Source of the DNA: Sipunculus nudus
Lineage: Eukaryota > Annelida > Sipuncula > Golfingiida > Sipunculidae
Reading direction: 5' to 3'
Assembly (NCBI GenBank): GCA_026874595.1
Contig: CM049319.1
Coordinates: 51,844,917-51,908,916 of the forward strand
DNA length: 64,000 nt
This document shows positions 3,620 to 36,957 of the stretch, in pieces. Under the pieces are notes generated by a model. The model had not been told where the DNA came from. It saw only the letters and a program-made list of their open reading frames with translations, and searched no databases. Position numbers and translations under genes: made by a program. Position 1 is the stretch's first letter. The number at the start of each line of letters is the position of its first letter.

Positions 3620-6171
3620 CAAGGGACCCATGGATCACGGCGCTCAGCTGAAGTTTGAAATTTTTGCAAATTCAAAATATGCAAAATATTCTATTGTAAG
3701 GTTTTTCATATATACAAGCATATGAGAAGCTAAGAGGAAAGGGACCCTCTTTGTATGATTGCAAAACTTATACTCTGACAAGGCTGTCATGAAGAAAAAC
3801 AGTAACAATTTTGAGATACTGTGATGCATATGAAAAATTTACAGATGGACAGGCAAGTGGACAGAATGGACTAACACCTTTATGTCACCTTCAAGGGTAT
3901 AATGTTTATATTTAAGCCTATTTTTTTAGCATATCCACTTTTTCCATTAACAGTTTTTATCATATTCATTTTTTTTATTTACAAATTTTACAAATTTGTA
4001 ATAAAAAAATCTGAAAATATATAAGTTAAAATATCAGAATTCTAAGTTGCAATCAATATATATCCAGAGTGTAGCTCATATCCGGTCATATTATGCATAC
4101 AAATATACTTTATTATTTTTAAATCGCAAATGTTTCAACTGAATTCAAAGGAAAATAATGCCACAACAAGGCATCATCAAGATTATTCCTTGAATCACTA
4201 TTAAAGTTTTGTACATTGGAGCTTTCAGTACATGCTTAATTTTATTCAGCAATATAAAAGATTCAGTAAATCTGATAAAATAAAACCATCTTTTCAAATA
4301 AGTATACACACTATTAGTTACGCTCTTTACACAGCACTTTAATTATAGGTCTACTTCCTATATGGTAAGCGCTGTTTGTTATGACCTCGTATCCTGCATT
4401 GCTACACCAGAGGGAGCACTGTATTTTTGTCCAATCAGATGAGACCTTGTGCTGGAAGACACGGCCAAACAAGAAATACACTGAGCCAATCATGTTCATT
4501 TCGTTTTGAGTGCATCTCATCGCCCCGGTAACCGTATGATCAGGCCACAGGCTCAGAGAGAATTGCCGCAGATGTGGTTTACTTAGGGCCTTGGGCACAT
4601 AGGATGCCCGACTGGTGAGCTGTAATTCAAAAGAAACGTAAGAACAAAGGCTGCGTGCACACCTCGCCAGCTAGTTTCAGTTCTGCAGACACCAGACACA
4701 AGGCTACACTAACACAGTCACACTGTCAGAATCGAATCGGTCGATGATGCGAGAATGCAGAGGGAGCAACTAAAATTCGAATGTAAACTTGTCTTCAAAC
4801 GGTGCTTGAAGCGCAGCTATGGGCGGAGCCAGGATGCCTGAAGTGTGTTTGTTTATTGGCATCTGGTTGGCTGCTTGTCACATCATACGCATGTTTTTTT
4901 TTTCAGCGGACAACAAACCGCCATCTGGTGTCTAAATATATCATAGTCGGTCAAAGTTGGCAGCGCGAAAATCAGTTTTTTCTTTAGAAGCGTAAGATTT
5001 CCGCTGCCTCGGGAGCGTAACTGTTAGTTGAATGAGGGAGAAACATCATCATTGTGCTAATTACTATCTCAGCTATAATTTTTTACTGGAATTAATAATA
5101 GTCAATTTCATACCTGGTGAAGTGTTTACTCTTCTGAAGTAAAGAATTACTTATCTGATGAACATTCACACTTTCATATAGCAATACACCACTTTGTGGA
5201 CACAATTAAATGTGCACTTTAATAATTGTAACCCTGGTGGTACAATACAAAATCTAAAATGTAGCTATCAGCCTAGAATAAGAATTAATCAAATATAGAA
5301 AATTATAAAATTCATCTATTTTAAGCACCAGCTGGGGGGGGGGGAGTGCAGGGCAGAGTGGAAGCCTGCTAGTAGTGGCCAAGCTGAGCCAATGCAAGCT
5401 GCCTGGAGAGGGTTACATAATACAAGTGAAGGCTGTACTACAAGGTGGGCCTGTCGTAAACAACACTTGACATGGTGTATTAAAAATTGAATAAAAGCTT
5501 CTCTTTTCAATCAATTCCTTTGAAATTTCAGATTAAAAAAATTAAAACCTTATGTATATATGCTGTGAAAATTAAATCAACAGTGCTTACAGGGGAAAAA
5601 TGTGCCGTAAGTTGTACAAATTTAAGGTATTGATTTTTTATTTATGCTAATAACTGCAAAATTCAGATCTAATTTTTTGGTAAATAATTGAATCTTGATT
5701 TAATAAAGTTCTATCCCTGAAAAAAAGTCTCCAGCTTCAGCAATTCTCATGTTTAAATATATTTCCTGATTTTTTAAAAATTGCATTATATTTGGACTCA
5801 TAACTTCAAAACAATACTCAATACTGACCTAATGTTTGGTATGTTAATAGAAAATATATGGAAGAATATGAATACTAAATATAATAAGAAACAGACCAGT
5901 GGTTTTGATATTAGGCAGCCTTGAAGTGTAACAATGGTTTTTTTATGGAAAACGGAGATTTTTCCATAATATTTTGAAGGAACGAAGTCATAGTGACCCA
6001 ATTTTCGGTATGGTATTAGATTTTGGGGACATTTAACTGTATGCAAAATTTTGGATTCCTAGGTCCAATGGTTTCAAAACGTGCCCTGTTAACGGACAAC
6101 TGGATGGATGAAGGACAAAGGACCTCGACTATAGCTCAGATGACTTTTAGTCAGCTGAGCTAAAAATCTAA
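3620..6171 (+). repeat. Family A repeat, copy A0 (older, with nested insertion)
   Basis: Starts CAAGGGACCCATGGATCACG..CTCAGCTGA and ends in the hairpin AGCTCAGATGACT-TTT-AGTCAGCTGAGCT followed by AAAAA. It is collinear with A1-A3, but lacks the roughly 450 bp block after their shared start (the first similar segment is CTATTGTAAGGTTTTTCAT) and the duplicated 3' module of about 0.6 kb. A 703-bp element interrupts it at 4318-5020. It lies in the DRAM intron, about 190 bp from exon 2. No coding potential was recognised. Confidence 0.8.
4318..5020. mobile_element. hAT-like non-autonomous element nested in A0
   Basis: Where A1 reads continuously through ACACTGTTGGTTGAATG, A0 carries about 703 extra bases. 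The insert begins TTACGCTC and ends GAGCGTAA, an 8-bp terminal inverted repeat. It is flanked by CTATTAG on the left and CTGTTAG on the right, which fits a 7-8 bp target duplication with one change. An 8-bp duplication and short TIR suggest the hAT superfamily. The 94-codon open frame on the minus strand inside it shows no transposase motif. Confidence 0.6.
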
Positions 6172-6362
6172 AGAAATATATTTGCATAAGTAGAAATGAA
6201 AACTATATAATAATTTTCGAGTAAAATAAATAAATTTAACTATTTGAACAGTCCCAGTTTTCAGTCTTCTTGTAAATATATCTCACTTCTCACTGGAAGT
6301 TTTTGTGCATATCATTGTATGTGACTTTAAAAGTGTGGCCATTGAAAAAACATCTAACTCAC

Positions 6363-6430
6363 CTAAAAATGCAGCAATGTTGAGAAATTGTGAGAAGACA
6401 TTTCTTTCCGGAACAACTACACCAGTATCA
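6363..6430 (-). CDS. DRAM2: DRAM1/DRAM2-like autophagy modulator, coding exon 2
   Basis: A 68-nt exon with acceptor CTTTCAG (AG at 6432-6431) and a consensus donor GTGAGT (GT at 6362-6361). After one base completing a Ser codon it reads DTGVVVPERNVFSQFLNIAA then FL, leaving one base for exon 3. The (S)DTG..PE..(I/L)F...LN.AA pattern is the most conserved family signature: vertebrate DRAM1 and DRAM2 both have PYISDTG followed by PE and a hydrophobic LN/IN segment. It encodes the end of the first lumenal loop and the start of TM2. Phases 2 in and 1 out match the flanking exons exactly, which with the similarity makes the assignment firm. The intron to exon 3 is about 5.2 kb and carries the A0 repeat. 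Confidence 0.9.
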
Positions 6431-6585
6431 CTGAAAGATAACATTCAAACTTTCAGTTATATATTAGGTACATATCAGAAATGATTAAATGAACATATCA
6501 TTGGTATACATTTAGTAAGTTGTATCTACTGTCCTGATCATGCTTAAATCTGTTTTTAACTACATGAACTATGCAAGAACAAATA

Positions 6586-7695
6586 CAGTCAAGCCCGCTT
6601 ATTGTCATGTTGGTGGTGCAGCCATAATTTATGATAATAACCGGGATGTGACATTATGCGGGCCTCAACATCGAGGTCCTTTTCACTCACATAAGAAGCG
6701 TTATGTCTCTAATGATATTAAATAAATCGTCAGTAAAATGGTAACAGAAACGTTTATGAATATTTTTATTGCATTATGGCAAATTACGTTTATGCGCACC
6801 TGAAAATATATTTCCTGTAAGTTTTGTGCCGCATGCTGCAATAACTGACAAAAATCCGACTTGCCAACAGAAAGAGATGTAGCGTCTAGGTCATGAGGTC
6901 AAATGTCTGGAAATATGCTGCAAAGTTATACATTATGCGTAGGCAAACTATTTTACTAGATAATTCTTTCCCCGACTATTGCACCTTATTTTCCGGATAT
7001 CTTATTAAAGACTCAAACTTCCATGATCGTCTTTATGATAGGACTGTTCGGGAAGCTGGCATTGTCATGCCATTGTCAACTTTCTGAAGTTTCGCCACCA
7101 TTGAGGTTTTGGACCGGGTATCTCCTCCTGTGCTCACAAAACCTCCAGCTTTTCGCGGACCCTTAAAGGAGATTTCCAATCATAAGCAACGTTTAAAGCT
7201 CGCTCATGCTTCATATCATCTCAGTGAAACCTCACTGAGGTGTAAACCGCGGCCTTTCAAAGGCCAGAAGTTCATTTTGGATAATATGTGATCGCAAACA
7301 TTGCACTTGTTAACGTACGAGTTATGCAATGAGCTGGATTACTGTGGTATCTTAAGACATTAATTTGCTATGTAACGGGGAGTGACCCACATGCATCACT
7401 GCACCTGCCTGCCGCACACTAGTTGGATATGAGATCGTTTGATACGCCTGACCGACTACAAGCTCTAGGCCTCGTTGATCGCCGTGTCGGCGTTAGATGT
7501 GATATTAACTGCGAACTGGTTTCACTGCCCAGGGTTCCAAGCATGACTATAAAAGGGATTATGACAATATTATTCCATGATATTAAACGGTCATATTTAC
7601 CATTGTTAATATAGGAAATGGTTTGGGTTTTCATATTGATGTGACAATAAACATGATTTTCTATTAACCAATATGACACAAAGTGGGCTCGACTG
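6586..7695. mobile_element. pogo/Tigger-like non-autonomous DNA transposon (about 1.1 kb)
   Basis: The left end is TA|CAGTCAAGCCCGCTTATTG and the right end, reversed, is TA|CAGTCGAGCCCACTTTGTG. These are inverted repeats of roughly 20-23 bp, flanked by TA on both sides, as in Tc1/mariner-pogo insertions; the CAGTCgAgcCCGCTTAT start resembles pogo/Tigger termini. Internal open frames (60-66 codons) show no DDE transposase motif, so it is non-autonomous. It lies in the DRAM intron between exons 1b and 2. Confidence 0.7.
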
Positions 7696-9360: not shown

Positions 9361-9839
9361 ATATTTGTGAATTTAACCTGATGTCTCATAGTTTCTATTG
9401 ATCTAGGTGTATGATTGTCTGGTATTTTAATACACGTCCTTAAAAGAACCTGGAAATGTCACCTGTAATGGCCGGGATCTAATTTCTTGATTAATGAAAT
9501 CTAGTGGCGAGCGTTAACCCATCCTGTTGTTTTATAGGATATATCCGTTGTAAAGTTATCACGTTAAGTTAGGGGTGACTATTCCCATATAACACAACAT
9601 ACCCCTTGCATAAGGAATTCCTTCAAGTTTTATTCATTAAGAACAGGACAAACATGTCATTGTAGATCTGAGTATAACTTGCACCCTGACTTTTAGGTTC
9701 AGCCTGGGGAATAGCATTAGTTTTGTTTCAAGAAATGTCCATAGTGCATATAAGTCCCAACAAGACTTAAGAGCCGTCCGAAACCACCTGGTACATACAG
9801 AATTAAAGTATCAAGGCTCCCTGCAACTAATGCAACTGT

Positions 9840-10240
9840 GGCTGTGATCTTTGACCCCATGACTTCAAACTAAATAGGGTTCTTCATCCATAGGTGGGTG
9901 AGCCATATTTGCAAAATGAAAGGTTTTGGTCAAACTGTTTGCCTTTTTAATGGGTCCACAATTTTTTCAAGAAGTGGGCCCTGTGGCAGTGATCTTTGAC
10001 CCTGTGACCTGAAAATTGATAGGATTCTTTATCCATGGATGGGGGATCCATATGTGCAAGATGAAAGGTTTTGGTCAAACTGTTTGGCTTAAAATTGGTC
10101 CACAAGCTTTTTCAAGGAGTTAGTCCTGTGGCTGTGACCTTTGACCTTGTGACCTCAAAATCGATAGGGTTCACCCATAGAGCATATGTACAAGATGAAA
10201 GATTTTTTGCCCAAAAATTCTGGTTTTAATTTATCTTTTG
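9840..10240 (+). repeat. Tandem repeat (about 145 bp period) with nuclear-receptor-like sites
   Basis: Three diverged units, each with a core like GTGACCTTTGACC then TGTGACCTCAAAATC and a stretch like GATGAAAGGTTTTGGTCAAA. Cores lie near 9849, 9990 and 10133. It is the same module as in 27040-27560 and, inverted, 55280-56220. It ends about 50 bp from the donor of DRAM exon 1b. Confidence 0.7.
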
Positions 10241-10680: not shown

Positions 10681-11207
10681 AAATGCAGTGATAAATTAAC
10701 CTATATCCACTGTGGTAAAATATTCATTTTGTATTAACAGAAAGTTTAAAGGAAATATACTACTGAAGTAATAACTGAATCAAGGACTTATTTAAGGTAA
10801 AGAATCGATGAACTGAATCAATTCAAAGGCCCCTGACAGTTAACAGACCTTATCATAACATTCAAAAACCAGGAAAAAGGCAATGGACGTACACATTAAA
10901 AGAATATTAATTAGTTGTTTAATAGTTTAATAGTCATGATTCCCAGTAGCTGATTGGTCAATGCAACTTACTAATAGCTGTTTATCCACTTAAATTTCTA
11001 GAACAATGACTAATTTTCCCATTAAATTAATGCTAATATAAAGTTAACAAGTGACCTAGGGGTCAGGATGCTCAGCTGTCTAGGACAACGTTCACAAAAG
11101 AAATTTTTTCATCTGAATGCAAAATGTTATATGTGGTATCCCAATTCAACTGAAGCATAGCTTTAAGGATATGGGTAACAGAGACCTAAGTTCAGGTTTC
11201 AAAGAAG

Positions 11208-11260
<53 letters not shown>

Positions 11261-15200: not shown

Positions 15201-18200
15201 CAAGGGACCCATGGGTCACGGCGCTCAGCTGATCGTGATTGGACTATAAATGTTTCTCCACTGTGATACTATATGGAGTCGATAAAGCTTATGAATATCA
15301 TATACATGTTGGGCTATTATAAAGGAATGTTATGTAATATGTGAGTAAATGATAAATGAAATTACCTGACTGATGGATTAATAGAGTCAAATAAAGTGGT
15401 TTATTTTTTATTTATTTAGGAGGGGTTGAAAATTGTGATATATTTGAGCAAATATGAATGCAATGACAGCAGTAATGAGCAGTAGTAGAATGATGATAAG
15501 GCTATTTGTTGAAGGATCTAAAGTGTATGGTAGTCTGCAAGCATTCAATTTGACAGATATGATGTTATGATTAACTATGCTGATGAAGTGATTTATGAAT
15601 ATGTGACTGTATGACACAATATCTCTTTAGTCTTGACAAGGTACATTATTGTGATGCCCACTATGTCTACATATTACACAATATTGACATAATTTCTGGC
15701 ATGTACATAGGTACCTATGGACGAATAGTTATACAAAATATTAAAGTATGAATATATCTGATTCGTCTTGTTCTTGCTTACTGAGGCTGACTTTCAAAGT
15801 TGGGATGGGGTTCGGAGAAGGGAAAAGTGAGGGCAGCACGAAGGTGGATGTAGAAATATTCTATTGTAATGTTTTTCATTTATATAAGAATATGAAAAGC
15901 TAAGAGGAAAGGGGCCCTCCTACTTGGTTATAGTAAAGTTCTAAATATATGATTGCAAACTAATACTCTGACAAGACTGTCATGAAGAAAAACAGTAAAA
16001 GTTTTGAGATACTGTGTTGCATACGAAAATTTACAGATGGACAGGCAAGTGGACAGAATGGACTAATACCTTTATTTCACTTTCAAGAGAATAATGCATT
16101 TAAGTTTATATATAATCCTATTTTTTTAAGCAGATCCACTTTTTTCCATTAAGAAGTTTTTATCTGAATCATTTTTTTATTTACAGGTTTATAAATTTTT
16201 AATTAAAAAACCTGAAAATATAAGTTAAAATATTAGAATTGTTGCAAAAGTTGCAATCATTATATATACAGAGTAAAAAACATTGGGTCATATTATGCAT
16301 ACACATATATTTTATTATTTTTAAATCATAAATGTTTAAACTGATTTTAAAAGAAAATAATGCCACAACATGGCATCTACAAGAATATTCCTTGAATCAC
16401 TATTAAAAAGTTTTGCACATTGGAGTTTTCAGTACATGCTTAATTTTATTCACCAAAATAAAATAAAAGTAAATTTGATAAAATAAAACCTCTTTTCAAA
16501 TAAAGTATACACACTGTTGGTTGAATGAGGGACAAACAATATCATTGTGCTAATTACTATCCCAGTTTTAATTAATTACTGGAATTAATAGTCAATTTCA
16601 CACCTGGTGAAGTTTTTACTCTTCTGAAGTAAGGAATTACTTATCTCATGAACATCCACACTTTCACAGCAATACACCACTTTGTGGACACAATTTAATG
16701 TACACTTTAATCATTGTAACCCTGGTGGTTCAATACAAAATCTAAAATGTAGCATGTCCAAGAATAAAATAAAATAATAACATTCATCTAGTTTATGCAC
16801 CAGCTGGAGGGGGGATGAGTGCAGGGCAGAGGGGAAGCCTGCTAGTAGTGGCCAAGCTGGGCCAAGGTAAGCTGCCTGGGGTGGGTTACATAATGCAAGT
16901 GAAGGCTGTACTACTAGGTGGGCTAGATGTAAACAACACTTGACATGGTGTATGAAAACATGAATAAAAGCTATTCAATCCTATCAATTTATTTTGAAAG
17001 TTCAGACTTTAAAAGATTAAATCCTTATGCATATATGCTGGGAAAATTAAATCAACAGTCCCAAAGTTGGACAAAATTTAAGGTATTGATTTTTTATTTA
17101 TGCTAATAACTTGAAAAATTTGCAAAATTCAGATCTAATTTTGGGTAAACAATTGAATCTTGATTAAATAAAGTTATATTCCTGAAAAAAAGTCTCTAGG
17201 TTCAGCAATTCTCATGTTAGGTGAGTAAATATATTTCCTGATTTTTTAAAAAATTGCATTATGTTTTGGCCCATAATTTCAAAATAATACCCAATACTGA
17301 CCTAATTTTTGGTATGTTAATAGAAAATGTATAAAAGAATGTGAATACTAAATACGATCAAAAACAGATAAGTGGTTTTGATATTAGGCAGCCTTGAAGT
17401 GTAACAATGGCTTTTTTTTTATGGAAAACAGAGTTTTTTTTCCTTAATATCTCGAAGGAACAAAGTCCTAATGCCCCAATTTTCGGTATGGTAGGAGATT
17501 TGGGGACATCTAAAATAATGTCAACAGCCTGGGGAGCATTGAGATGTGCACTGAATGACCTACAGTCATCAAAGTGGACTGCTTGACAATGTAAGGGAAT
17601 ACAACAAGAGCCTCCAAAAAAAATACAATAACTAGCCTAATTTTGCAGCTTTTATTTTCAAATTTCAGAATTTAACAGATTTAATCCTTATGTATACATG
17701 GTGTGAAAATTAAATCCACAGTACTTACAGGAAAAAAACGTGCCATGGCCAAAGTTGGGCAAAATTTAAGGTACCAATTTTATATTTTTGCCAATATTTA
17801 AAAAAATTTAACAAATTTTGATCTAATTTTTGGTATACAATTAAATTTTGATTAATTAAAGTTGTATTACTGGAAAAAAGTCCCTACCTTTAACACTTTT
17901 GGTCTTAAGTGACCAAATATCTTCCTGATTTTTTTACAAAGTCCATTATGTTTGGGCTCATAACTTTTTTAAATTATATAATACTGACTTAATATCTGGC
18001 ATGTACATAGGAACTATATAGAGGAATATTTATGGTAAATATGAAGAAAACCGGATGAGTGGTTTTGATATTAGGCAGTCCTGAAGTGTGAAAATAGATT
18101 TCTAATAAAAAATTGAGGTTTTTCCTTAATATCTCAAAGGAACGAAGTCCTATTGACCCAATTTTTGGCATGGTAGGAGATTATGGGGACATCTAACTGT

Positions 18201-18366
18201 ATGCCGAAATTCAGATTCGTAGGTCCAACGGTGTCGAAACGTGCCAGTCTTACGGACGGACATCCAGACGGACAGACAGACAGACGGACGGACTGACAGA
18301 CGGACGGACGACGGACAATGGACCATGACTATAGCTCAGATGACTTATAGTCAGCTGAGCTAAAAA
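15201..18366 (+). repeat. Family A repeat, copy A1 (about 3.17 kb)
   Basis: Full-length copy. The start is CAAGGGACCCATGGGTCACG then GCGCTCAGCTGATCG; the end is a GGACGGACGG-rich tract (18242-18315) and the hairpin AGCTCAGATGACT-TAT-AGTCAGCTGAGCT plus AAAAA. It is nearly identical base for base to A2 (28561) and A3 (33818). Within it, 17640-18240 is a diverged direct duplication of about 17000-17520 (both contain the CTTATGTATA..GTGAAAATTAAATC and CTTAATATCTC..GGAACGAAGTCCT segments). No long open frame, so it is non-coding or non-autonomous. Intron location (DRAM intron 1, if exon 1a is linked). Confidence 0.9.
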
Positions 18367-18594: not shown

Positions 18595-18994
18595 TTCCAT
18601 GTGCATAGAAATGATATACTTATTAAACTTATTTGGGACCGACATGACAATCAGTACCTACACATGGGACAGCTTGATTAAATATTACTAGCACTTCCAT
18701 GTGCACAGAAATGATATACTTATAAAACTTATTTGGGACCGACTTGACAATCAGTACCTACATATGGGACAGCTTGATTAAATATTACTAGCACTTCCAT
18801 GTGCACAGAAATGATATACTTATTAAACTTATTTGGGACCAACTTGACAATCAGTACCTACATATGGGACAGCTTGATTAAATATTACTAGCACTTTCAT
18901 GTGCACAGAAATGATATACTCATTAAACTTATTTGGGACCGACTTGACAATCAGTACCTACATATGGGACAGCTTGATTAAATATTACTAGCAC
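18595..18994. repeat. Tandem repeat, four units of exactly 100 bp
   Basis: The segment GTGCACAGAAATGATATACT starts at 18601 (GTGCATAG there), 18701, 18801 and 18901, so the period is exactly 100 bp with only a few substitutions between units. Each unit also holds TTGGGACCGACTTGACAATC and CAGCTTGATTAAATATTACT. The low divergence points to recent expansion or ongoing gene conversion. Confidence 0.92.
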
Positions 18995-19054: not shown

Positions 19055-22000
19055 TAACTAGATATTTCTTGGCACTGCAGAAGCCATAGTATCCCCAGAC
19101 AATTAATCCCCCCCCCCCCTTTAAGAATAGGCCCCCCCATCTTCAGCAATTAATATCAGACCACACTCATAGAAAAGGTCACTTTCATAGAAAAGGTCAT
19201 GACCCATATATCAATATACATCATCCCCTAACCCATGTCTATGTATATGCATAATATGAAAGAAATCTGTCCATTAGTTTTTGACTTATAATGCTCACAG
19301 TACTGAGAGTGGCAATGATGGGGTATTAAACGGCATGAAAACAAGTAAAAGAATAACAGGGGGCGCTATTAGTTTGCGTGAGATGACAACACTATCCAAG
19401 ATCTTTGGTTAAATTGATTTTTGGACCAATTAATGTATCCCTTATTGAGATATTAATGATTTTGTGTGATTTTCCCCCCAAAATGGACACATTCAAGGTC
19501 AAGGCCACTCCCATAGGAAGGTCATGACCCCAATTTAAATAAACATCACCCTATAATCCATATCTATGTATATGTGTAGCAAATGTTAAGTCGGGAGAAC
19601 AGCCGGCTTGTCTCCCCTGCGTAATATTTCTTCTCTTTTCCTTCACTATGGCATTGTTGGCATTGTCGTCTTGGTGACACTGTCACCGGAAACTGTTTTA
19701 ATCTCAGTCTCTCTGGTTGACTCCCCTGAATAGAAATAATTTTTCAGATTTATCATTTTTTATATAAAGTTTTATATCATTAACGTTTAGATTTATATTT
19801 AATAGATTTATATTTAATAGAGGTAAGAATAAAGGCGATATCAATACAATTATTATGTATATAGATTCTTACCATTTGGGGTTTGCCGAAGGTTTCCGAT
19901 ACTGAACGGCTATGTGGCATGAAACCTTCCCTGATCGGTTTTTGAGAAACCTAAACGCAACAATAGGACAGGTCGCATGGCATGGGTACTTGGGCATGAC
20001 GTGCCCCTACTGACGATCCCGTTAGGGACATCACGTCAGTCCAGCCTCATGTCATGCTATCGACAACACGTCGAATCAGATCTTGTCCACTTTGTTGCAG
20101 GTAGGTAAAATTGGCATCTATCTACAACATTTTGAAAACAAAGTATGAATTGAATGTCAATATAATATTCTCTAATTAATATTAATATATTTTCTATCTG
20201 GGTGCTTTAATTATATATCCTTGTAATATTATTGTTATTAATACGGGACCCCTGAACCTTTGACCTCGAGTTCTTTGGTTGCACTGGAAACCCCGTGAAA
20301 TATTCCTGTAAATCTTTAAAGGGACCCACACCACAAGTCAATATGCCAAATTATTGCTGACCTCTAAAAGAGCATTTCCACGTGTCCAAATAATTTCCAC
20401 TTGTCTAGATAATCTCCACGTGTCCCGATAGAATTCCACGTGGGACTGAAAGAAGGGCCAATAAACGAATTATATCTGTACAAGTACATCTAACCTCCGT
20501 TATTTTTGTCTGTCCATCATTTATTTTCCCCCCACTCCTAAGGCAGCAGCAATATTTAAAAATTAGCTTGAAAATGCATAGAATGAGTAAACAGAGAATT
20601 TAAAACATAACAGAACTAAATGTAACACTCGTATTGAATAATTCTATAAAATCATATTTTCTTTTATAAAATATAATGAGAAAATGGGTCTACGGCATAA
20701 ATATGAGTAAAGAGAAAATGTTCTACAGCAACGGCCTTCTCTCAAACAAACGCAGACGTTATGACTATAACCGTGCTGCCGTCTATCAGTGGATGCTCGC
20801 CCTAATTCGAGCTAAGCCATAACATCCCCCCCCCCTTTCTCTCTCTTTTATTTTTTGACAAATTGAATTACCATGAAATGTTAGCGAAATGAACCAGAAA
20901 TTCCTACAAACGTTCATAAACCTCATATAAACGTATTTTAAACTAAAACCACTTAGCATTGTGGCAGAACTCACTGTGGGAATATGCCAAGTTACTTTCA
21001 ACCTTAAAAATCTGATCCTTTAAATAAAAGTACGATCCTATGCATTAAAAGTACCAGAACCACTGACCAATGACTGACTCCCAGTAACTTTCCACTTAAT
21101 TATTGATTTTGAACCTCACCTGTGATAGCCCTGCTGCAAAATTCACGTTAAATTCATACACAACTTTCACCAAGTGTTCTGAGCCTGGCGATGTTGATGA
21201 TTTGTCACTGGGAACCACCTGTTTACACGCGGCGGCCTCGTTTTTCTGACTCACTGTTCCCTTTATGAACCATTCCCCTTTTATAACACACATTAGTCCT
21301 TCTATTTATTATGTTACGAAGTAATGTTAATATGTGTGATTAACCAAAGATATCCCATACCTACAAGTAAATAAATATTTACCGAGGTAGATTTCTTGAA
21401 TTTCCTAGGGTAGATAAACAACCATTATCCGTCCCTCCAAATATAGTGGGATACCCCCTTCGCTCTTCCATCATAGACTCCCAGAAAATAACCACCCCGA
21501 ATGTTTTCACTTAGAAATTTACTACAATCATTGGTCATATTTATATTCTATCGTGTAATAGCATAATTACTTTGAATGATAACAATATAAAACATTATGT
21601 ACTTAAGAATGATACTTAGCCTAGATGTTTCACATTTGTATACTTAATGTATGTTATTATAGATAGAAGATATAAACGAAGTGAAATCTTAGTGGTATTG
21701 TTTGTGTATAGTTGTACACAAACATAATTTGTGTATGAATAGTAAGATGTAAACAATTATAAATTAGATGAGAGTATGAGATAAAGATTGATAGATATGT
21801 ATAAACAAGATGTAAGATAGTGTGAGATTAGGAGTTGTTTAAAAGATATGTATAATAACATGATTATAATAACATGAAGATTTCAGGTAAACATACATTA
21901 ACATATCTTGTGTACTTGTTGCAGATGCATAAATTGCATTTGAGTATATTTATATACATTATAATAAACAGTCCAGTATGTGTAAACAATATGTTAAGTA

Positions 22001-22975
22001 CCTTTATGATAATAAGCAGTCCAATATTTGTAAACAATATGATCAAGTGAGTCCAGCCTCATGTCATGCTATCGACAACACGTCGAATCAGATCTTGACC
22101 ACTTTGTTGCAGACAAAGAATAAACAGTTGTCAAGCTTATCGTTTACCATTTGTGTGTGTGCGAGTGGACCACGAACCAGACCCCGCCTTACCGCCCGCC
22201 CGTGACACATGCATAATATGAAAGAAATCTGTCCATTAGTTTTTGACTTATAATGCTCACAGTACTGTTTAGTAGCAATTCTGGGGGTATTAATTGGCAT
22301 GAAAACAAGTAAAGAATAACAGGTGGAGCCACCTGTTTCCCATACATGACAATACTATCCAAGATCTTCAATCAAGTTGATTTTTGGACCAATCCATGCA
22401 TCCCTTATTGAGATATTAATGATTTTGTGTAATTTTCACCATATATGGCAATATTCAAGGTCAAGGCCACTCTAATAGGAAAGGTCATGACCCCAATTTA
22501 TATATAAATCATCCCATAACCCAAGTCTATGTATATGCATTATATGAAAGAAATCTGTCTGATAGTTTTTGACTTATAATGCTCACAGTATTGTCAAGTA
22601 GCAATTGTGGGGGTATTAAACAGCACGAAAACAAGTGAAGAATAATAGGTGGCGCCACCAGTTTCTGGAACATGACAACCCTATCCATGATTTTCCACCA
22701 ATTTGATTTGGGATCATTCCATGCTAGATTTCTTGAGATATTTAAGAATTTGTGTGATTTTCCCCAAAATTGGACCTATTCTAGGTCAAGGACACTCTCC
22801 TAATCAAGGTCATGACCTCATTTTAAATAGACGTCTTCCTCTCACCCATATCTATACATATACCAAGTTTGGTAAAGATCCGTGAAATATTTTTTGAGTT
22901 ATCATGCCAACAAGATTTATATGCGGCGGCGGCGTGACCGGTATGAAGACATAGTATCCCCCGACGTCAGTGCAT
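19055..22975 (+). repeat. Family B repeat with tandem units of about 326 bp, split by a 2.6 kb insertion
   Basis: Starts ACTAGATATTTCTTGGCACT then CATAGTATCCCCAGACAATT and poly-C; ends GCGGCGGCGGCGTGACC then CATAGTATCCCCCGACGTC, so the same CATAGTATCCCC motif marks both ends in direct orientation. Internal units repeat TATGCATAATATGAAAGAAA and GTTTTTGACTTATAATGCTC at 19248, 22209 and 22535 (about 326 bp apart once the insert is removed). The full inverted relative is at 54650-56350. Confidence 0.75.
19584..22207. mobile_element. Insertion of about 2.6 kb in family B, possible LTR-type element
   Basis: It interrupts a B unit: B sequence stops after CTATGTATATGTGTAGCAAA and resumes at CATGCATAATATGAAAG. 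The insert begins TGTTAAGTCGGGAGAACAGC and ends CGCCCGTGACA, giving TG..CA termini. Inside, a 63-bp segment (20038-20100) is repeated at 22050-22112 with one mismatch. The first copy is followed by a donor-like GTAGGT; the second by sequence with a polyadenylation signal AATAAA (22119-22124). No reverse transcriptase, integrase or gag-like frame was recognised, and a clean target duplication is not visible, so the class is open. Confidence 0.5.
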
Positions 22976-24150
22976 AAACTAGCATACGGGTAGTGGACAA
23001 GCGACTATGTGTATCCGCCAAAATTAGAGTAGGACAGGTGAAGTGAGACATGGATTGAGTGGCAAGGGGTAACAGAGTTACATGTGTTACATATTAGAAT
23101 GGATCTCTGCCACGTACACATGATTGTAGGTGGGCCACCTGTTATTTGATCGAGAAACTATCCAAGATGTATACACATGCGAAATTTCAGGTGGAAAAGT
23201 CAAACCACTGCAGAGATATGAGTGATTTTATCACACAGCAGACAAACAGATGGATGCTGTGCAAAAATGGCTGCAGATGGCTCCACCATTTTTGTGTATG
23301 TTATAAAGCTATCGAAGGGCTACATTTGTGTAAATTTTTTTCCTGATTGGTCAAACGAGTCCGGAGATATAAGCATTAATGTCTGCAGCGTGAACGTGAA
23401 TGAAGCTGGCGCCACCAGTCATAAAATCAAGAAAGCTATCCAGGATGTATATGCATGCCGAATTACAGGTAATTTGGTCAAACCACTGCTGAGATATGAG
23501 TGATTTTTACCCAAGGCAGACAAACAGATGGATGCTGTGCAAAAATGGCTGCAGGTGGCACCACCATTTTTGGGTATGTTATAAAGCTATACAAGGGCTA
23601 CATTTGTGTAAAATGTTTTTTCCTGATTGGTCGAACGAGTCCGGAGATATAAGCATGGATGTCTACAGCGTGAATGTGAATGTAGGTGGTGCCACCTGTT
23701 ATAAAATCAAGAAAGCTATGCTGGATGTATACGCATGCGGAATTTCAGGTAATTTGGTCAAACCACTGCAGAGATATAAGTGATTTTAACCCAAGGCAGA
23801 CAAACAGATGGACGCTGTGCAAAAATGGCTGCAGGTGGCGCCACCATTTTTGTGTATGTTATAAAGCTATCCAAGGGCTACATTTATGTAAAAAAATTTC
23901 CTGAATGGTCTAATGGTTCCCGAGATATGAGCTTGGATGTCTGTAGCGTTTACATGAATGTAGGTGGCACCACCTGTCATAAGATCAAGAAAGCTATCTA
24001 GGATGTATACGCATGCCAAATTTTAGGTGATTTAGTCAAACCACTGCAGAGATATGAGTGATTTTAACCCAAGGCAGATGAACAGATGGACACTGTGCAA
24101 ACATGGTTGCAGGTGGCACCACCTTTTTTTGTGTGTGTATGATATATATG
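22976..24150 (+). repeat. Tandem array (about 280 bp units) with GGTGGCGCCACC palindromes
   Basis: Units alternate two related half-units of roughly 130-150 bp, each centred on GGTGGCGCCACC or a one-base variant, with TATAAAGCTATCCAAGGGCT and GGTCAAACCACTGCAGAGAT between them. About three and a half units are present. The array is the inverted relative of 59000-61610. The start (AAACTAGCATACGGGTAGT, then CAAGCGACTATGTGTATCC) also matches the far end of that array at 61570-61614. Overlapping open frames of 66-95 codons here are repeat-derived. Confidence 0.85.
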
Positions 24151-25392: not shown

Positions 25393-27828
25393 CAAGTGAC
25401 CCATGGGTCATGACGCTCAGCTGCCAAGCATGACCTGCGACATCATGGGCTGCAATTCACAACTTCTAGTAAAATTGTTGCAGATCCTATATGCCAATTT
25501 TGTTTAAACTTTCTACATTGCCATAAATTCTTATCATATATGTCTGGTTAAAACATAGTGAATGATGGTCTGAGGCAAAATGTATGGTTGTTGAGCTATC
25601 AGGAACTAATCATACAGCTTGCTCGATACCTGTCAGTCTCAAAAGGAATATCACACAGGCCACATATAAGATCAAAATATAGCAAAAGATCAAGGAAATC
25701 CATGCAAGAATTATTGTGATACAGGTGCTTCCATATTAATTTTTATTCAATACAAGACAACTGTACTGAGCTTTCATAAATGATGGTCATATTTATTAAG
25801 AAATCTTTGACCCAATGCAAGATTACATTAATATACATCCCACTGCATTCACTTTAATAGTTCTTGAGATAATATGTTCTAAAGGAATTTAAAGATGGCC
25901 TCCTGGTGGCCATATTGGATTTCTGACAGGTCGGAAATTAAACAACAAACATCCTCTAAAAGGGACCAAACATCATAAAAAAATCACAGAAACTGTCCTG
26001 GCAAAAGGATTTCTAAAATGGCTACCTGGCAGACATAATGGTTTTCTGACAAGTCACACATCCTCCAATAAGACACTAAACTTGTAGCAATTGCTTCAAA
26101 GAATGTAACAGTTATGAATGTCCAAAACAATTCAAAAGGCATGATCAGGTTGGAGAGCTCTCATATCAGATTTATGAACATGCAAATGTAAAAAGTGCAA
26201 GTCCAATTTGTTTTAATTATCAGCTTGCTATTCAATGGGGTCAGCAGGGTAGGTAAACTGCAAAACCTAAAAGAAAAGAAATGCAGAAAGCATCACTAAG
26301 AGTCTTGTAATCAAAAAAAGCCATCCTAAATCCAGGTACAGACCCACATATTATCAAAACAAACACTTGCTGGTATATCTGATGATTTGTATAATAATAT
26401 TCAGATATCTAGAAAACTAAGTTTATTGCTATGATTCCATGTTATAAACTGCAAAATGTTCCCATCATTTTATAAATCAGTAGCTAAACGTAACACTTAA
26501 CTCTCATAGTCTTAATGCCTGGCCAAAGCATTCCGGCAACAGTGTTTTTGTTATGCACTAATGATATATCCTTATCACTCCATGAGCTGATTCAAAAGGG
26601 AGTCATATATCACAAGTGTCACTGACAATTATGGGCACATAGTGAGATGTACCAGTTGTGAGTGCCATATGGTTATATATACAAGAAAACAAGAAAAATA
26701 GAGATGGTCTACAAAATAAGTTATTGTGAACATCCCTGACCAATGACCTTGGCCTTTTGCCCACATATCAACTGGATTCTTTCTAAATGATGGGTAACTA
26801 CTAACCACTTACATCTGGCCGGGTGTAATTACTTGGCAACCAATGAGTGAATAATTTAGACCTGCAACCTTTAACCTCCTGACCAGCTGACCTCAAAATC
26901 AATTAGTTATTTCTTCATGCAAAAAGACCCATAAATATGAAGTTTGAATCAAATTCAGTGATGCACAGATGTGGCATATGTGAAAGACTGAAGGTTTGGG
27001 TTGAACAGTTTCACTTGAAATATGTTCACAAGCATTTAGAACAATATTGTGACCTTGACCTTTGACCTTTTGAACTCAACATCAATAGGCTTCTTCTCCT
27101 ATTGGTAGGTAAGCCATATATGACAGATGGAAAGTATAGATTGAAAAGTTTGCTGAAAATGACTCCACGCAAGAAGAGGGTGCTGTAAACTTGACCTTTG
27201 ACCTCAAAATCAACAGGTCTTTTCCCCTGTTGGCAGAGAAGCGATATCAGTGCTGAAAGGTTTGGAATGAAAGGTCTAGCTTGAAATGTGTCCACAACCC
27301 TTTCAAAGAAGTGGATCCTGTGACCCTGACCTTTGACCTTGTGACCTCAACATCTATAGGATTCTTCTCCCACTTAGTAGGTGAGCTATATGTGAAAGAT
27401 CAAAGAATTGGGATGAAAGGTTTGGCTTAAAATGCATCCTGAGGCTTTTCAAAGAAGTTGGTTCTGTGACCTTGACCTTTGACCTTGTGACCTCAAAATA
27501 ATTATGGTTCTTCCCCTGTTGGTAGGTGAGCTGTATGTGAAAGATGGAAGGTTTGGGATGAAAATTTTGGCTAAAAGAATTATTTCTGGGGGGTGCAAAC
27601 ACACCCCATAACTTCGAGAATATAGGTCGCAGTGACCTAATTTCAGGTTTGCAAGATCTTTTTAGAACCTCTAAGACTGCATAGGGTTCATGGCCCTAGC
27701 CCCTATGGTTACGATTTGCGCCCTGCTAACGGACGGACGGCCGGCCGGACGGACGGACAGACGGAAGGACGCCGGACAAAGACCCATCGCTATAGCCCAG
27801 CATGACTGAAAGTCAGCTGAGCTAAAAA
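25393..27828 (+). repeat. Element C, relative of family A, with a DR1-type tandem module
   Basis: Start CAAGTGACCCATGGGTCATG then ACGCTCAGCTG. End: a GACGGACGGCCGGCC-type tract, then AGCCCAGCATGACT-GAA-AGTCAGCTGAGCT plus AAAAA, the same terminal hairpin as family A with a different loop. The interior is different from A1-A3: it holds an approximately 140-bp tandem module (27040-27560) with cores GACCTTGACCTTTGACCTTG at about 27049, 27322 and 27468 and a weaker one at 27191. No coding region. Confidence 0.8.
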
Positions 27829-28560: not shown

Positions 28561-31500
28561 CAAGGGACCCATGGGTCACGGCGCTCAGCTGATCGTGATT
28601 GGACTATAAATGTTTCTCCACTGTGATACTATATCGAGTCGATATAGCTTATGAATATCATGTACATGTTGGGCTATTATAAAGGAATGTAATGTAATAT
28701 GTGAGTAAATGATAAATGAAATTACCTGACTGATGGATTAATAGAGTCAAATAAAGTGGTTTATTTTTTATTTATTTAGGAGGGGTTAAAAAATGTGATA
28801 TATTTGAGCAAATATGAATGCAATGACAGCAGTAATAAGCAGTAGTAGAATGATGATAAGGCTATTTGTTGAAGGATCTAAAGTGTATGGTAGTCTGCAA
28901 GCGTTCAATTTGACAGATATGATGTTATGATTAACTATGCTGAAGAAAGTGATTTATGAATATGTGACTGTATGACACAATATCTCTTTAGTCTTGACAA
29001 GGTACATTATTGTGATGCCCACTATGTCTACATATTACACAATATTGACATAATTTCTGGCATGTACATAGGTACCTATGGACGAATAGTTATACAAAAT
29101 ATTAAAGTATGAATATATCTGATTCATCTTGTTCTTGCTTACTATGGCTAACTTTGGGATGAGGTTCGGAGAAGGGAAAAGTGAGGGCAGCACGAAGGTG
29201 GATGTAGAAATATTCTATTGTAATGTTTTTCATTTATATAAGAATATGAAAAGCTAAGAGGAAAGGGGCCCTCCTACTTGGTTATAGTAAAGTTCTAAAT
29301 ATATGATTGCAAACTAATACTCTGACAAGACTGTCATGAAGAAAAACAGTAAAAGTTTTGAGATACTGTGTTGCATACGAAAATTTACAGATGGACAGGC
29401 AAGTGGACAGAATGGACTAATACCTTTATTTCACTTTCAAGAGAATAATGCATTTAAGTTTATATATAATCCTATTTTTTTAAGCAGATCCACTTTTTCC
29501 ATTGAGAAGTTTTTATCTGAATCATTTTTTTATTTACAGGTTTATAAATTTTTAATTAAAAAACCTGAAAATATAAGTTAAAATATTAAATTTGTTGCTA
29601 AAGTTGCAATCATTATATATACAGAGTAAAAAACATTGGGTCATATTATGCATACACATATATTTTATTATTTTTAAATCATAAATGTTTAAACTGATTT
29701 TAAAAGAAAATAATGCCACAACATGGCATCTACAAGAATATTCCTTGAATCACTATTAAAAAGTTTTGCACATTGGAGTTTTCAGGACATGCTTAATTTT
29801 ATTCATTAAAATAAAATAAAAGTAAATTTGATAAAATAAAACCTCTTTTCAAATAAAGTATACACACTGTTGGTTGAATGAGGGACAAACAATATCATTG
29901 TGCTTATTACTATCCCAGTTTTAATTAATTACTGGAATTAATAGTCAATTTCACACCTGGTGAAGTTTTTACTCTTCTGAAGTAAGGAATTACTTTTCTC
30001 ATGAACATCCACACTTTCACAGCAATACAACCCTTTATGGACACAATTAAATGTACACTTTAATCATTGTAACCCTGGTGGTTCAATACAAAATCTAAAA
30101 TGTAGCATGTCCAAGAATAAAATAAAATACAGAAAAATTATAACATTCATCTAGTTTATGCACAAGCTGGGGGGATGAATGCAGGGCAGAGGGGAAGCCT
30201 GCTAGTAGTGGCCAAGCTGGGCCAAGGTAAGCTGCCTGGGGTGGGTTACATAATGCAAGTGAAGGCTGTACTACTAGGTGGGCTAGATGTACACAACACT
30301 TGACATGGTGTATGAAAACATGAATAAAAGCTATTCATTCCAATCAATTTCTTTTGAAAGTTCAGATTTTAAAATATTTAATCCTTATGCATATAAGCTG
30401 GGAAAATTAAATCAACAGTGCCAAAGTTGGACAAAATTTAAGGTATTGATTTTTTATTTATGCTAATAACTTGAAAAATTTGCAAAATTCAGATCTAATT
30501 TTGGGTAAACAATTGAATCTTGATTAAATAAAGTTATATTCCTGAAAAAAAAGTCTCTAGGTTCAGCAATTCTCATATTAGGTGAGTAAATATATTTCCT
30601 GATTTTTTAAAAAATTGCATTATGTTTTGGCTCATAACTTCAAAACAATACCCAATACTGACCTAATTTTTGGTATGTTCATAGAAAATGTATAAAAGAA
30701 TGTGAATACTAAATACGATCAAAAACAGATCAGTGGTTTTGATATTAGGCAGCCTTGAAGTGTAACAATGGCTTTTTTTTATGGAAAACAGAGTTTTTTT
30801 TCCTTAATATCTCGAAGGAACAAAATCCTAATGACCCAGTTTTCGGTATGGTAGGAGATTTTGGGGACATCTAAAATTATGTCAACAGCCTGGGGAGCAT
30901 AGAGATGTGCACTGAATGACCTACAGTCATCAAAGTGGACTGCTTGACAATGTAAGGGAATACAACAAGAGCCTCCAAAAAAATTCAATAACTAGCCTAA
31001 TTTTGCAGCTTTTATTTTCAAATTTCAGATTTTAACAGAATAAATCCTTATGTATACATGCTGTGAAAATTAAATCCACAGTACTTACAGGAAAAAAACG
31101 TGCCATGGCCAAAGTTGGGCAAAATTTAAGGTACCAATTTTATATTTTTGCCAATATTTAAAAAAATTTAACAGATTTTGATCTAATTTTTGGTATACAA
31201 TTAAATTTTGATTAATTAAAGTTGTATTACTGGAAAAAAAGTCCCTACCTTTAACACTTTTGGTCTTAAGTGACCAAATATCTTCCTGATTTTTTTACAA
31301 AGTCCATTATGTTTGGGCCCATTACTTTTTTAAATTCTATAATACTGACTTAATATCTGGCATGTACATAGGAACTATATAGAGGAATATTTATGGTAAA
31401 TATGAAGAAAACCAGATGAGTGGTTTTGATATTAGGCAGTCCTGAAGTGTGAAAATAGATTTCTAATAAAAAATTGAGGTTTTTCCTTAATATCTCAAAG

Positions 31501-31740
31501 GAACAAAGTCCTATTGACCCAATTTTTGGCATGGTAGGAGATTATGGGGACATCTAACATTATGCCAAAATTAAGATTCGTAGGTCCAACGGTGTCGAAA
31601 CGTGCCAGTCTTACGGACGGACATCCAGACGGACAGACAGACAGACGGACGGACGGACGGACGGACAGACAGACGGACGGACGACGGACAATGGACCATG
31701 ACTATAGCTCAGATGACTTATAGTCAGCTGAGCTAAAAAT
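28561..31740 (+). repeat. Family A repeat, copy A2 (about 3.18 kb), nested in family B
   Basis: Near-identical to A1 throughout, with the same start, the same duplicated 3' module, a longer GGACGGACGG run (31615-31687) and the same terminal hairpin. Scattered substitutions and small indels separate it from A1 and A3. It splits a B unit between GATCCTTAAA and TGTTTTGAGTTATC; compare the uninterrupted B sequence GATCCGTGAAATATTTTTTG at 22875. Confidence 0.9.
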
Positions 31741-33817
31741 GTTTTGAGTTATCGCGTCCAAACGAAATCTCTGCGGCGGCACAACCGTGCCTAAACCAAA
31801 GTATCTCCAGACTTTGTCTTGCTATACAATAATAGCAGAATAAACAACGCGTAAGGAGTTAATCAGATGCTTTTAGTCAGTGTCAAAGATTTTATCCTAA
31901 GAAACCCTGCAAAACTGTTGTTTTACTGTTGTACTAGCTGGCTGAAGTTCACCAGGTCCAAATTGTGCTTGTAATACTGGCCTTCCTTCTGGAGGCAAAT
32001 TTGCGGTTTTAGCCACTAACCATTAACAATACAAAAACCAAAAAAACTATTTCATATCCATTTTGACAAACAAAAACAGAATTAATGTAATGAAGAAGTA
32101 AGAGGCAGCTGAACATAAGTGACGAAATTAAGACAGAAGAAGGTGATTATAAAAACGTTTTCTGTTCATACAAGTGTCTTGCCTCATAGAGGTGCATAGG
32201 CTATTATGACTGACCACACTCCAATCGTATATAAATTTATATTAAATAGTTTAAGATAATAAATTTATAATAATAATTAATATACATAAAAGCAACTTTG
32301 GTGTGACAGAGTTTGGTATGTAGGTACTAATTATTAAGTCAGGCCCTTATTTGTAAACAATCTGTCAAACACGAGTACGATTTGTCTCAGCCCAAATCAC
32401 CGCGGGCTAACAAGGATCGTTAGGGATTATATTTCATTAATATATTAAGGTAAAAACGTGGTAAAGTTGCCAGAAAGACCCATTTACTACCAAAGACACT
32501 AACGGATGCATTTTGGTGTGTATATTTAGTAGTTTTAAGAGTTTTTTTGGTGCCTTCTACCAGTGTCTACCCTTTCACCATTACAAGGCCTAACTGTACA
32601 GGCCTTTCCCACAACTGTGATCGTATCACAGTTGTGGATCCGCAACAAGAGTACGAAATACGAGACAGTACAAAGTACACCTGAATGGCTGAAGCCTGTA
32701 CATCTATACAGTGTTAAACAGTGCCCAATCTGAGATGGATATAGTCTGTTACGTAACAAGCCTCGTAATCATGCGGGTAATCAATCACGTACAAATAAAG
32801 GGCACAGTTACGTACCACAAGTCCAAAAACAGCTACGTAGGTTTGAGGATCGAGCAGCCCTCAGCCTCCCGTCTGCTATCATATGATCGTGTCTATACAC
32901 AACTCTCCACGCAGAGATGATATCATCACTCCCGTACTATATGAAAGGCAAATAATGACGTGTTCGCGGTACTTTCAGGAGAGTGACAATGGGCTTTCCT
33001 CATTCACAATCTTTCGGCAGATAAAGTCTCTCAAATGTCAGCAAAAGCAACTCCTTATAATCAGCTGTCTGATACTGATTGGTTAAACGATAACATCAGT
33101 TAACCGCTAAACGTTCTCATCACATAATCTATCAGCTTTGGATTTTAATCACAATCAATCCATATTCTAACAAAATGAAAAATGACATCTTGTGGTGAAT
33201 CTCTTTGAGAGTTCAAGTCAGTTTTACAAAATAGCTACAGATGGCACCACTATGGAACTATCCCATAGCGTCCGAAGAGGACAGTCCGTTTATTTATATT
33301 TTTATATACTCATTTATTTCCATGAAATTAATCCTTATATTATTCATATGAGACATCTGTTATTCATATAAAATGGATACAATCAGGAGCAACTTTACAC
33401 TTGGCCATAACTTTTATAGATTTACCACAATGATTTGCTATAGTAGGCCTACACTATAGCTAGGCCCGCGATGACACCCGGAAGTTTTAAACCAGCCAGT
33501 ATGCTCAATGAAAACCTGAAAGCATATTAAAAGCACAGACCTGAAAGTAAAAGTAAATGTAGGCCTTTAGTTTTCGACAAAGCACTTAAACTAATACTAC
33601 GTACTGAAGTTTAAATGACAAACCTTACCTGGAAAAACGCCAAGCTAGGGCTATCGGGTAGGTATGTGTTCAAACTAAAGATAATTCTAAAACGTATGTT
33701 GACTATACACCTCTGGATACATAAAAGGGTTAAACAGGGGAACAGGATTTGGGTGTTCATATGACTACCGGTGAAATTATGATGCGTCATGAAATTCCCA
33801 AACGGCACTTAAACAAA
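31741..33817. other. Remainder of B copy, then unique sequence; no gene recognised
   Basis: The first 70 or so bases are the 3' end of the B copy split by A2. The rest is largely unique. Short frames at 32535-32759 (minus) and 32711-33086 (plus) have no recognisable protein content. A perfect inverted repeat is listed separately at 32609-32637. Confidence 0.45.
32609..32637. other. Perfect inverted repeat, 13-bp arms with 3-nt spacer
   Basis: CCACAACTGTGAT-CGT-ATCACAGTTGTGG: 13 matched base pairs without error, capable of a tight hairpin or of binding a dimeric protein. It stands in otherwise unique sequence and is not part of a terminal repeat that I can see. Confidence 0.85.
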
Positions 33818-36800
33818 CAAGGGACACATGGGTTACGGCGCTCAGCTGATCGTGATTGGACTATATATGTTTCTCCACTGTGATACTATATCGAGTCGAT
33901 AAAGCTTATGAATATCATGGACATGTTGGGCTATTATAAGGGAATGTAATGTAATATGTGAGTAAATGATAATTAAATGAAATTACCTGACTGATGGATT
34001 AATAGAGTCAAATATAGTGGTTTATTTTTTATTTATTTAGGAGGGGTTGAAAATTGTGATATATTTGAGCAAATATGAATGCAATGACAGCAGTAATAAG
34101 CAGTAGTAGAATGATGATAAGGCTATTTGTTGAAGAATCTAAAGTGTATGGTAGTCTGCAAGCTTTCAATTTGACAGATATGATGCTATGATTAACTATG
34201 CTGATGAAGTGATTAATGAATTTGTGACTGTATGACACAATATCTCTTTAGTCTTGACAAGGTACATTATTGTGATGCCCACTATGTCTACATATTACAC
34301 AATATTGACAATTTCTGGCATGTACATAGGTACATATGGACGAATAGTTATACAAAATATTAAAGTATGAATATATCTGATTCATCTTGTTCTTGCTTAC
34401 TGAGGCTGACTTTCAAAGTTGGGATGGGGTTCGGAGAAGGGAAAAGTGAGGGCAGCACGAAGTTGGATGTAGAAATATTCTATTGTAATGTTTTTCATTT
34501 CTATAAGAATATGAAAAGCTAAGAGGAAAGGGGCCCTCCTACTTGGTTATAGTAAAGTTCTAAATATATGATTGCAAACTAATCCTCTGACAAGACTGTC
34601 ATGAAGAAAAACAGTAACAGTTTTGAGATACTGTGATGCATATGAAAATTTACAGATGGACAGGCAAGTGGACAGAATGGACTAATACCTTTATTTCACT
34701 TTCAAGGGAATAATGCATTTAAGTTTATATATAATCCTATTTTTTAGGCATATCAAATTTTTCCATTATGAAGTTTTTATCTTAATCATTTTTTTATTTA
34801 TAGGTTTTATAAATTTTTAATAAAAAAAAACTGAAAATTTAAGTTAAAATATTAGAATTGTTGCAAAAGTTGCAATCATCATGTATCCAGAGTGTAGCTC
34901 ATATTGGGTCATATTATGCATACACATATATTTTATTATTTTTAAATCATAAATGTTTAAACTGATTTTAAAAGAAAATAATGCCACAACATGGCATCTA
35001 CAAGAATATTCCTTGAATCACTATTAAAAAGTTTTGCACATTGGAGTTTTCAGTACATGCTTAATTTTATTCACCAAAATAAAATAAAAGTAAATTTGAT
35101 AAAATGAAACATCTTTTTAAAAAAATGTATACACACTGTTGGTTGAATGAGGGACAAACAATATCAGTGTGCTAATTACTTTCCCAGTTTAATTTATTAC
35201 TGGAATTAATAGTCAATTTCACACCTGGTGAAGTTTTTACTCTTCTGAAGTAAGGAATTACTTATCTCATGAACATCCACACTTTCATAGCAATACAACA
35301 CTTTGTGGACACAATTAAATGTACACTTTAATCATTGTAACCCTGGTGGTACATTACAAAATCAAAAATGTAGCATGTCCAAGAATAAAATAAAATACAG
35401 AAAATTATAACATTCATCTTGTTTATGCACCAGCTGGGGGGGTGTGAGTGCAGGCAGAGGGGAAGCCTGCTAGTAGTGGCCAAGCTGGGCCAAGGCAAGC
35501 TGCCCGGGGTGGGTTACATAATGCAAGTGAAGGCTGTACTACTAGGTGGGCTAGATGTAAACAACACTTGACATGGTGTATGAAAACATGAATAAAAGCT
35601 ATTCTTTCCAATCAATTTTTTTTAAATTTCAGATTTTAAAAAAATCCTTATGTATATATGCTGTGAAAATTAAATCAACAGTGCCAAAATTGGACAAAAT
35701 TTAAGGTATTGATTTTTTATTTATGCTAACAACTTGAAAAATTTGCAAAATTCAGATCTAATTTTGGGTAAACAATTGAATCTTGATTGAATAAAGTTAT
35801 ATTCCTGAAAAAAGTCTCTAGGTTCAGCAATTCTCATGTTAGGTGAGTAAATATATTTCCTGATTTTTTTAAAAATTGCATTATGTTTTGGCCCATAACT
35901 TCAAAATAATACCCAATACTGACCTAATTTTTGGTATGTTCATAGAAAATATATAAAAGAATGTGAATACTGAATACGATCAAAAACAGATCAGTGGTTT
36001 TGATATTAGGCAGCCTTGAAGTGTAACAATGGCTTTTTTTATGGAAAACGGAGTTTTTTCCTTAATATCTCGAAGGAACGAAGTCCTAATGACCCAATTT
36101 TCGGTATGGTAGGAGATTTTTGGGACATCTAAAATTATGCCAACAGCCTGGGGAGCATAGAGATGTGCACTGAATGACCTACAGTCATCAAAGTGGACTG
36201 CTTGACAATGTAAGGGAATACAACAAGAGCCTCCAAAAAAATTCAATAACTAGCCTAATTTTGCAGCTTTTATTTTCAAATTTCAGATTTTAACAGATTA
36301 AATCCTTATGTATACATGCTGTGAAAATTAAATCCACAGTACTTACAGGAAAAAAAAACGTGCCGTGGCCAAAGTTGGGCAAAATTTAAGGTACCAATTT
36401 TATATTTTTGCCAATATTTAAAAAAATTAACAGATTTTTATCTAATTTTTGTTATACAATTAAATATTGATTAATTAAAGTTGTATTACTGGAAAAAAGT
36501 CCCTACCTTTAACACTTTTGGTCTTAAGTTACCAAATATCTTCCTGATTTTTTTACAAAGTCCATTATGCTTGGGCCCATAACTTTTTTAAATTATATAA
36601 TACTGACTTAATATCTGGCATGTACATAGGAACTATGTAGAGGAATATTTATGGTAAATATGAAGAAAACCAGATGAGTGGTTTTGATATTAGGCAGTCC
36701 TGAAGTGTGAAAATAGATTTCTATTAAAAAAATTGAGGTTTTTCCTTAATATCTCGAAGGAATGAAGTCCTATTGACCCTATTTTTGGCATGGTAGGAGA

Positions 36801-36957
36801 TTTTGGGGACATCTAACTGTATGCCGAATTTCAGATTCGTAGGTCCAACGGTGTCGAAACGTGCCAGTCTTACGGACAGACGGACGGACAGACGGACGGA
36901 CGACGGACAATGGACCACGACTATAGCTCAGATGACTTATAGTCAGCTGAGCTAAAA
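33818..36957 (+). repeat. Family A repeat, copy A3 (about 3.14 kb)
   Basis: Start CAAGGGACACATGGGTTACG (two changes from A1), same internal order and same 3' duplicated module, a shorter GACGG tract (36874-36906), and the same hairpin ending with GAGCTAAAAA at 36957. It is followed by GGGGATCCCC and then the next repeat. The TGGATACATAAAAG-type unique sequence ends immediately before it. Confidence 0.9.

Follow-up and report, generated by a model that had tools for sequence, protein, structure and literature searches.

The window analysed here comprises 64,000 nucleotides (nt) of Sipunculus nudus contig CM049319.1 (assembly GCA_026874595.1, positions 51,844,917 to 51,908,916 of the forward strand) and carries dispersed repeats whose two ends are conserved around differing bodies. 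Both ends are present in six copies. Three of them, A2 (15201..18366, minus strand, with its left end at 18366 and its right end at 15201), A4 (28561..31739, minus, inside another repeat) and A5 (33818..36958, minus), have the same borders. E1 (3620..6166, minus, 2547 nt) is an A-related copy whose ends were matched by their position and their likeness to A, while C (25393..27828, minus), its ends paired by position, has a different body and repeats related to those at 9836-10172 and 55279-56187. The sixth, P (56705..63740, plus), contains central repeats of 337-345 nt, lies inside A-like sequence and is itself interrupted by another element with 278-nt central repeats (57070..61798, plus), as seen from its junctions and from uninterrupted units. 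In addition, there are two left ends for which the right-end profile found no right end, namely one with central repeats at 37352..38357 (plus) and one at 38358..38836 (plus) that sits within a T-run in the central repeat of the copy before it, as well as two right ends with no left partner at 11048..11091 and 109..147 (both minus). We are highly confident that these repeats are non-autonomous Helentrons (HINEs). The group is a fresh member, of the ordinary kind, of the known HINE/Helentron group, set beside known HINEs by description only.

This assignment is carried by the order of the parts. Read on the strand opposite to that used in the initial annotation, the left end consists of TTTTT, AGCTCAGCTGACT, a 3-nt loop, AGTCATCTGAGCT, ATAG and a GTCC/GTCY stretch, often followed next by tandem repeats, and the right end of (T)CAGCTGAGC, 3 nt, an imperfect palindrome near GTGACCCATGGGTCAC and TTG. 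Subterminal inverted repeats (subTIRs) are found at both ends; the left one, AGCTCAGCTGA, is exact in six of the eight copies, and the right one reads TCAGCTGAGC exactly in four, with CAGCTGAGC kept in six and alterations in the copy at 109 and in P. The 10-nt motif that they share lies 5-6 nt from the left edge and about 22 nt from the right edge; an inverted motif common to both ends had indeed been reported before. Beside the left subTIR, the 3-nt loop is followed by an inverted partner, AGTCATCTGAGCT or a variant of it, in all eight copies (with an indel in one). GTCC/GTCY stretches occur in the left ends, seen on the plus strand as ACGG arrays for A2, A4, A5 and C and weak at 6166 and 56705, and central tandem units are present in A, C and P. 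At the right end, five to seven of eight palindrome positions pair in each of the eight copies, downstream of the right subTIR. The published HINE order is the same as the order here, so that the two termini had been assigned the wrong way round: on the other strand, the hairpin with AAAAA becomes the left (5') end (TTTTT, subTIR, loop, inverted repeat), and the CCATGG palindrome is the 3' hairpin. For the same reason the class, previously called unclear, is recognisable as HINE or non-autonomous Helentron. A match to an already classified family, which the initial annotation had named as grounds for withdrawing its proposal, is thereby found at the level of type.

When 5 or 6 mismatches were allowed, neither composite end had a match in 30 random sequences that reproduce the base-to-base transitions of the window, whereas the window itself returned eight palindrome ends and 14 hairpin matches, the latter being seven copies read on both strands. 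Leave-one-out nhmmer profiles, for which the three near-identical A copies were dropped together, recovered all eight hairpin ends (E 1e-14 or better) and all eight palindrome ends (E 1e-5 or better), including the unpartnered right ends at 11048 (E 9.4e-6) and 109 (E 3.4e-6). Hairpin ends stand at every one of the eight places first proposed, and palindrome ends at 109, 3620, 11048, 15201, 25393, 28561 and 33818 on the plus strand; the minus-strand copy had to be moved from 63742 to 63740. The consensus first given for the palindrome end proved loose, the exact 18-nt CAAGTGACCCATGGGTCA occurring in one copy of eight and the exact CGCTCAGCTGA beside the palindrome in four. As for the 16-nt core GTGACCCATGGGTCAC, the window has no exact occurrence of it; one copy keeps the inner 14 nt and three keep the inner 12 nt. 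A ninth candidate, at 1948, resembles the palindrome ends but was rejected: it is without the flanking motif and reached a leave-one-out E of only 0.26.

Between these ends, the copies diverge. Common to them are only a stretch of about 50 nt at the left end and one of 35 nt at the right end; beyond the latter, identity between right ends from different subgroups is 24-59 % across 25 nt, figures that come without a control run, and the 56-59 % between 63740 and the A copies may be residual likeness. The earlier statement that the bodies differ is borne out, and both conserved ends together with differing bodies support mobile DNA defined by its ends, of the Helitron kind, as had been suspected. 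With so little sequence in common, the bodies would be free to vary and to collect tandem repeats. Within the A subgroup, A2, A4 and A5 are 94-97 % identical over 3.14-3.18 kb and have both borders in common, their alignments stopping together at the left end and extending past the right end into no more than 3 to 7 nt of common flank. Just beyond E1, an A-type fragment is found at 3250-3528, in which 3516-3528 is a left-end stem strand in degraded form.

No coding capacity was detected. The longest closed stop-to-stop open reading frame (ORF) in the window measures 147 amino acids (aa), and Pfam searches of read-through frames of A5 (six frames), C (three, minus strand) and the insert nested in P (six) gave nothing above cut-off. 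Pfam coverage of A2, A4, E1 and the outer parts of P came from ORFs of 120 aa or more, and for the parts scanned it holds that the window contains no coding member. Sub-threshold hits in the read-through frames to InlK_D3 (E 0.042) and Nse4_C (E 0.088) were taken as chance.

At the sites of insertion, TT follows all eight right ends and TTTTT stands at all eight left ends, while 55 of the 529 CTTG words on both strands of the window are followed by TT. The flanks are unrelated to one another: when the eight right 100-nt flanks, and likewise the eight left ones, were compared by same-strand blastn, nothing matched at E 1e-3. Empty sites and target duplications had been suggested as checks, and three insertions do have uninterrupted relatives, all of them diverged and within the window. 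The host sequence of the 56705-63740 insertion is continuous in A2, A4 and A5, with a T-run at the junction; the host repeat of 28561-31739 is continuous at 22750-23000 and, as the reverse complement, at 54600-54850 (two of three relatives aligned); and the element at 57070-61798 lies within a T-run in one of the central repeats carried by the 56705 element, three other units being uninterrupted there. At none of the three sites was a target duplication seen beyond ambiguous Ts. Insertion at TT with no target duplication, as expected of HINEs, is therefore what is found, subject to the ambiguity of the T-runs.

These borders bear directly on whether the repeats could be canonical non-autonomous Helitrons, which begin with 5' TC, carry a hairpin about 11 nt before 3' CTRR and insert between A and T. 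Such an origin would also account for elements defined by their ends, for a hairpin near one end and for the lack of visible target duplication. However, the left end starts with TTTTTAGC instead of TC, the right end is CTTG and not CTRR and is followed by TT in every copy, and subTIRs are present, which together make this origin very improbable. We consider it similarly far-fetched that the repeats are miniature inverted-repeat transposable elements moved by a cut-and-paste DDE transposase via the shared 10-nt inverted motif: such elements have terminal inverted repeats and a fixed target duplication, whereas here the motif, though near both ends, is subterminal and lies at unequal distances from the two edges, the hairpin at one end differs from that at the other, and no duplication beyond the ambiguous Ts accompanies the insertions. 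Retroposition as elements resembling short interspersed elements, with the AAAAA that borders all eight hairpin ends (TTTTT on the other strand) as a poly-A tail, is hardly credible given the T-runs at the target in uninterrupted relatives, the absence of a duplication beyond ambiguous Ts, the constancy of both edges among the three A copies and the lack of any Rfam match in the whole window at the gathering score.

Several observations nevertheless weigh against the HINE assignment. A perfect right palindrome is found in none of the eight family copies, the shared 10-nt repeat is exact at only half of the right ends, copy P has changes in both of its end motifs, and four ends (37352 and 38358 on the left, 109 and 11048 on the right) remain unpartnered. 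The uninterrupted sites are diverged relatives from the same window, and the third relative of the host repeat around 28561-31739, at 19400-19640, loses its similarity at the junction and is uninformative. Moreover, T-runs at the junctions leave undecidable how many Ts belong to the element and whether a few Ts were duplicated. The left stem is likewise less regular than first described. Of the 13-bp stem said to be held, both strands are exact in four of eight copies, whereas position 8 is mismatched in all seven ungapped copies (C.T in six and G.T in one, three of the seven being near-identical), five further cells are broken at four other positions, and the hairpin at 27795-27823 carries an indel. 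The covariation once proposed as a check was not found, as the seven ungapped left stems show no compensatory change; in view of this and of the missing perfect right palindrome, the structures cannot be claimed from covariation. In mites, the 3' subTIR of comparable elements lies 38-60 nt from the end, against about 22 nt here, according to the published description (PMC4067079).

A generic structural scan for HINEs returned six pairs on the two strands, of which three are A2, A4 and C and three are false pairings, and it failed to find A5, E1, P and the nested element. Run on 20 random sequences as controls, one strand each, it gave one hit in a set of six and none in a set of 14, and the scan is accordingly weak evidence. 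The left-hairpin pattern was found in neither prokaryote genome contigs nor viral contigs, and a text search of papers for the palindrome GACCCATGGGTCA found none.

Among known systems, pearl elements and the CvA-type elements of oysters are kindred by description. The superfamily to which the CvA-type elements are assigned is likewise described as having satellite-like repeats between conserved ends that bear subterminal inverted repeats (PMC11136912). For Cg_HINE of Crassostrea gigas, the published outline gives the order 5' subTIR, close complementary inverted repeat, GTCY/GTCC microsatellite, optional satellite-like repeats, 3' subTIR and palindrome (PMC7492417), and the descriptions of DINE-1/HINE elements give the same order (PMC4067079). 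The S. nudus repeats resemble Cg_HINE as portrayed there in their subTIRs, in the complementary inverted repeat with short spacer beside the left one, in the GTCY/GTCC stretch and the satellite-like central repeats, and furthermore in the right subTIR followed by a palindrome, the TT preference, the absence of target duplication and the modular bodies (PMC7492417). This likeness rests on descriptions and not on compared sequences, and we claim no identity with a named Cg_HINE (PMC7492417). With the DINE-1/HINE elements of Drosophila, mites and Culex, again as outlined in the source, they share subTIRs, an inverted repeat by the 5' subTIR (in DINE-1), a 3' stem-loop, a microsatellite and central repeats in some, a T-rich target and Ts at both edges (PMC4067079). 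The finding reveals no new class of mobile DNA. Its value lies in bringing bounded HINE copies together with uninterrupted relatives and nested layers within a single window, which is useful for annotation and for seeking the mobilising Helentron.

The elements, then, have defined ends and borders, a T-rich target, no detectable target duplication and, in the parts scanned, no protein domain. Following Helentron biology (outlined in part in PMC4067079, the rest being general background), an autonomous Helentron elsewhere in the genome would supply Rep, helicase and endonuclease functions in trans. This machinery would recognise the left TTTTT-subTIR-hairpin and the right subTIR-palindrome-CTTG, and the element would move by rolling-circle replication, presumably through a single strand, to be joined between Ts in T-rich DNA. 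The autonomous partner should be flanked by TTTTTAGCTCAGCTGA and by TCAGCTGAGC-palindrome-CTTG. Autonomous partners are reported in the account of DINE-1/HINE elements (PMC4067079), whereas the authors of the oyster study report that they could relate no autonomous Helentron to their HINEs (PMC7492417).

A more speculative idea concerns functional signals within the elements. Left and right subTIRs can pair without mismatch over 10 nt in four of the six paired copies and over 9 nt in a fifth, and fail to do so in P. In addition, the 12-nt palindrome GGTGGCGCCACC has 36 matches in the window with up to two mismatches, whereas 30 random sequences contain 0.47 on average and two at most. Nineteen of these lie in tandem arrays of the 278-nt unit and five in arrays of the 337-345-nt unit (24 of 36), three more in stray 337-345-nt units and nine elsewhere; example sites are 22648, 23834, 37680, 54965, 57054, 59185, 60195, 62120 and 62465. 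As 27 of the 36 matches belong to repeat units, they are not independent; the units come, however, from families that are otherwise dissimilar, and at E 1e-8 blastn aligns no stretch of at least 100 nt between the two unit types. In some units, GGTGGCGCCACC is followed by a T-run, and one such T-run took the nested insertion at 57070. It is conceivable, though unlikely, that the mismatch in the left hairpin and the end-to-end pairing of the subTIRs act as a switch displacing the local hairpin during rolling-circle transposition, and that GGTGGCGCCACC marks preferred insertion sites. As literature text, GGTGGCGCCACC has a match in one paper, on a chitinase.

The nested element has ends of its own: TTTTT-AGCGAACCTGT at the left and ACAGGTTAGC-ATT-AGGCCTGTAGGCCT-TG, then TTTT, at the right. 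By eye, nine of ten nt agree in its inverted repeat and no left inverted repeat complementary to the subTIR is seen, so that it is HINE-like with a looser fit. A related left end, TTTTTAGCAATTTTGT, lies on the minus strand at 2749. At 1948-1966, also on the minus strand, a perfect 16-nt palindrome, AAGACCCATGGGTCTT, is followed by TTG and TT; it may perhaps be the right end of another HINE family, to which the left end at 2749 would belong. Layering is also seen at the left ends 37352 and 38358, which lie about 1 kb apart. At 78.8 % identity between the two copies, recent tandem amplification was judged unlikely, and nested insertion followed by loss would be the simpler reading.

The six ORFs of at least 120 aa in the window yielded two Pfam matches below cut-off, both in one ORF outside the elements, at 46962-47345: RVT_1 (E 0.00035, 20.8 bits against a Pfam cut-off of 29.6), which marks a reverse transcriptase-like fragment at 46962-47348 (plus), and DUF5580_M (E 0.023). 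No tRNA genes were found in the window. Two further tandem repeats were noted, namely a 100-nt unit in four copies near A2 (18595-18994, 97 % matches) and a 106-nt unit in two copies at 47500-47711 with many short inverted repeats around GGGTTCTTCAT.GAACCC.

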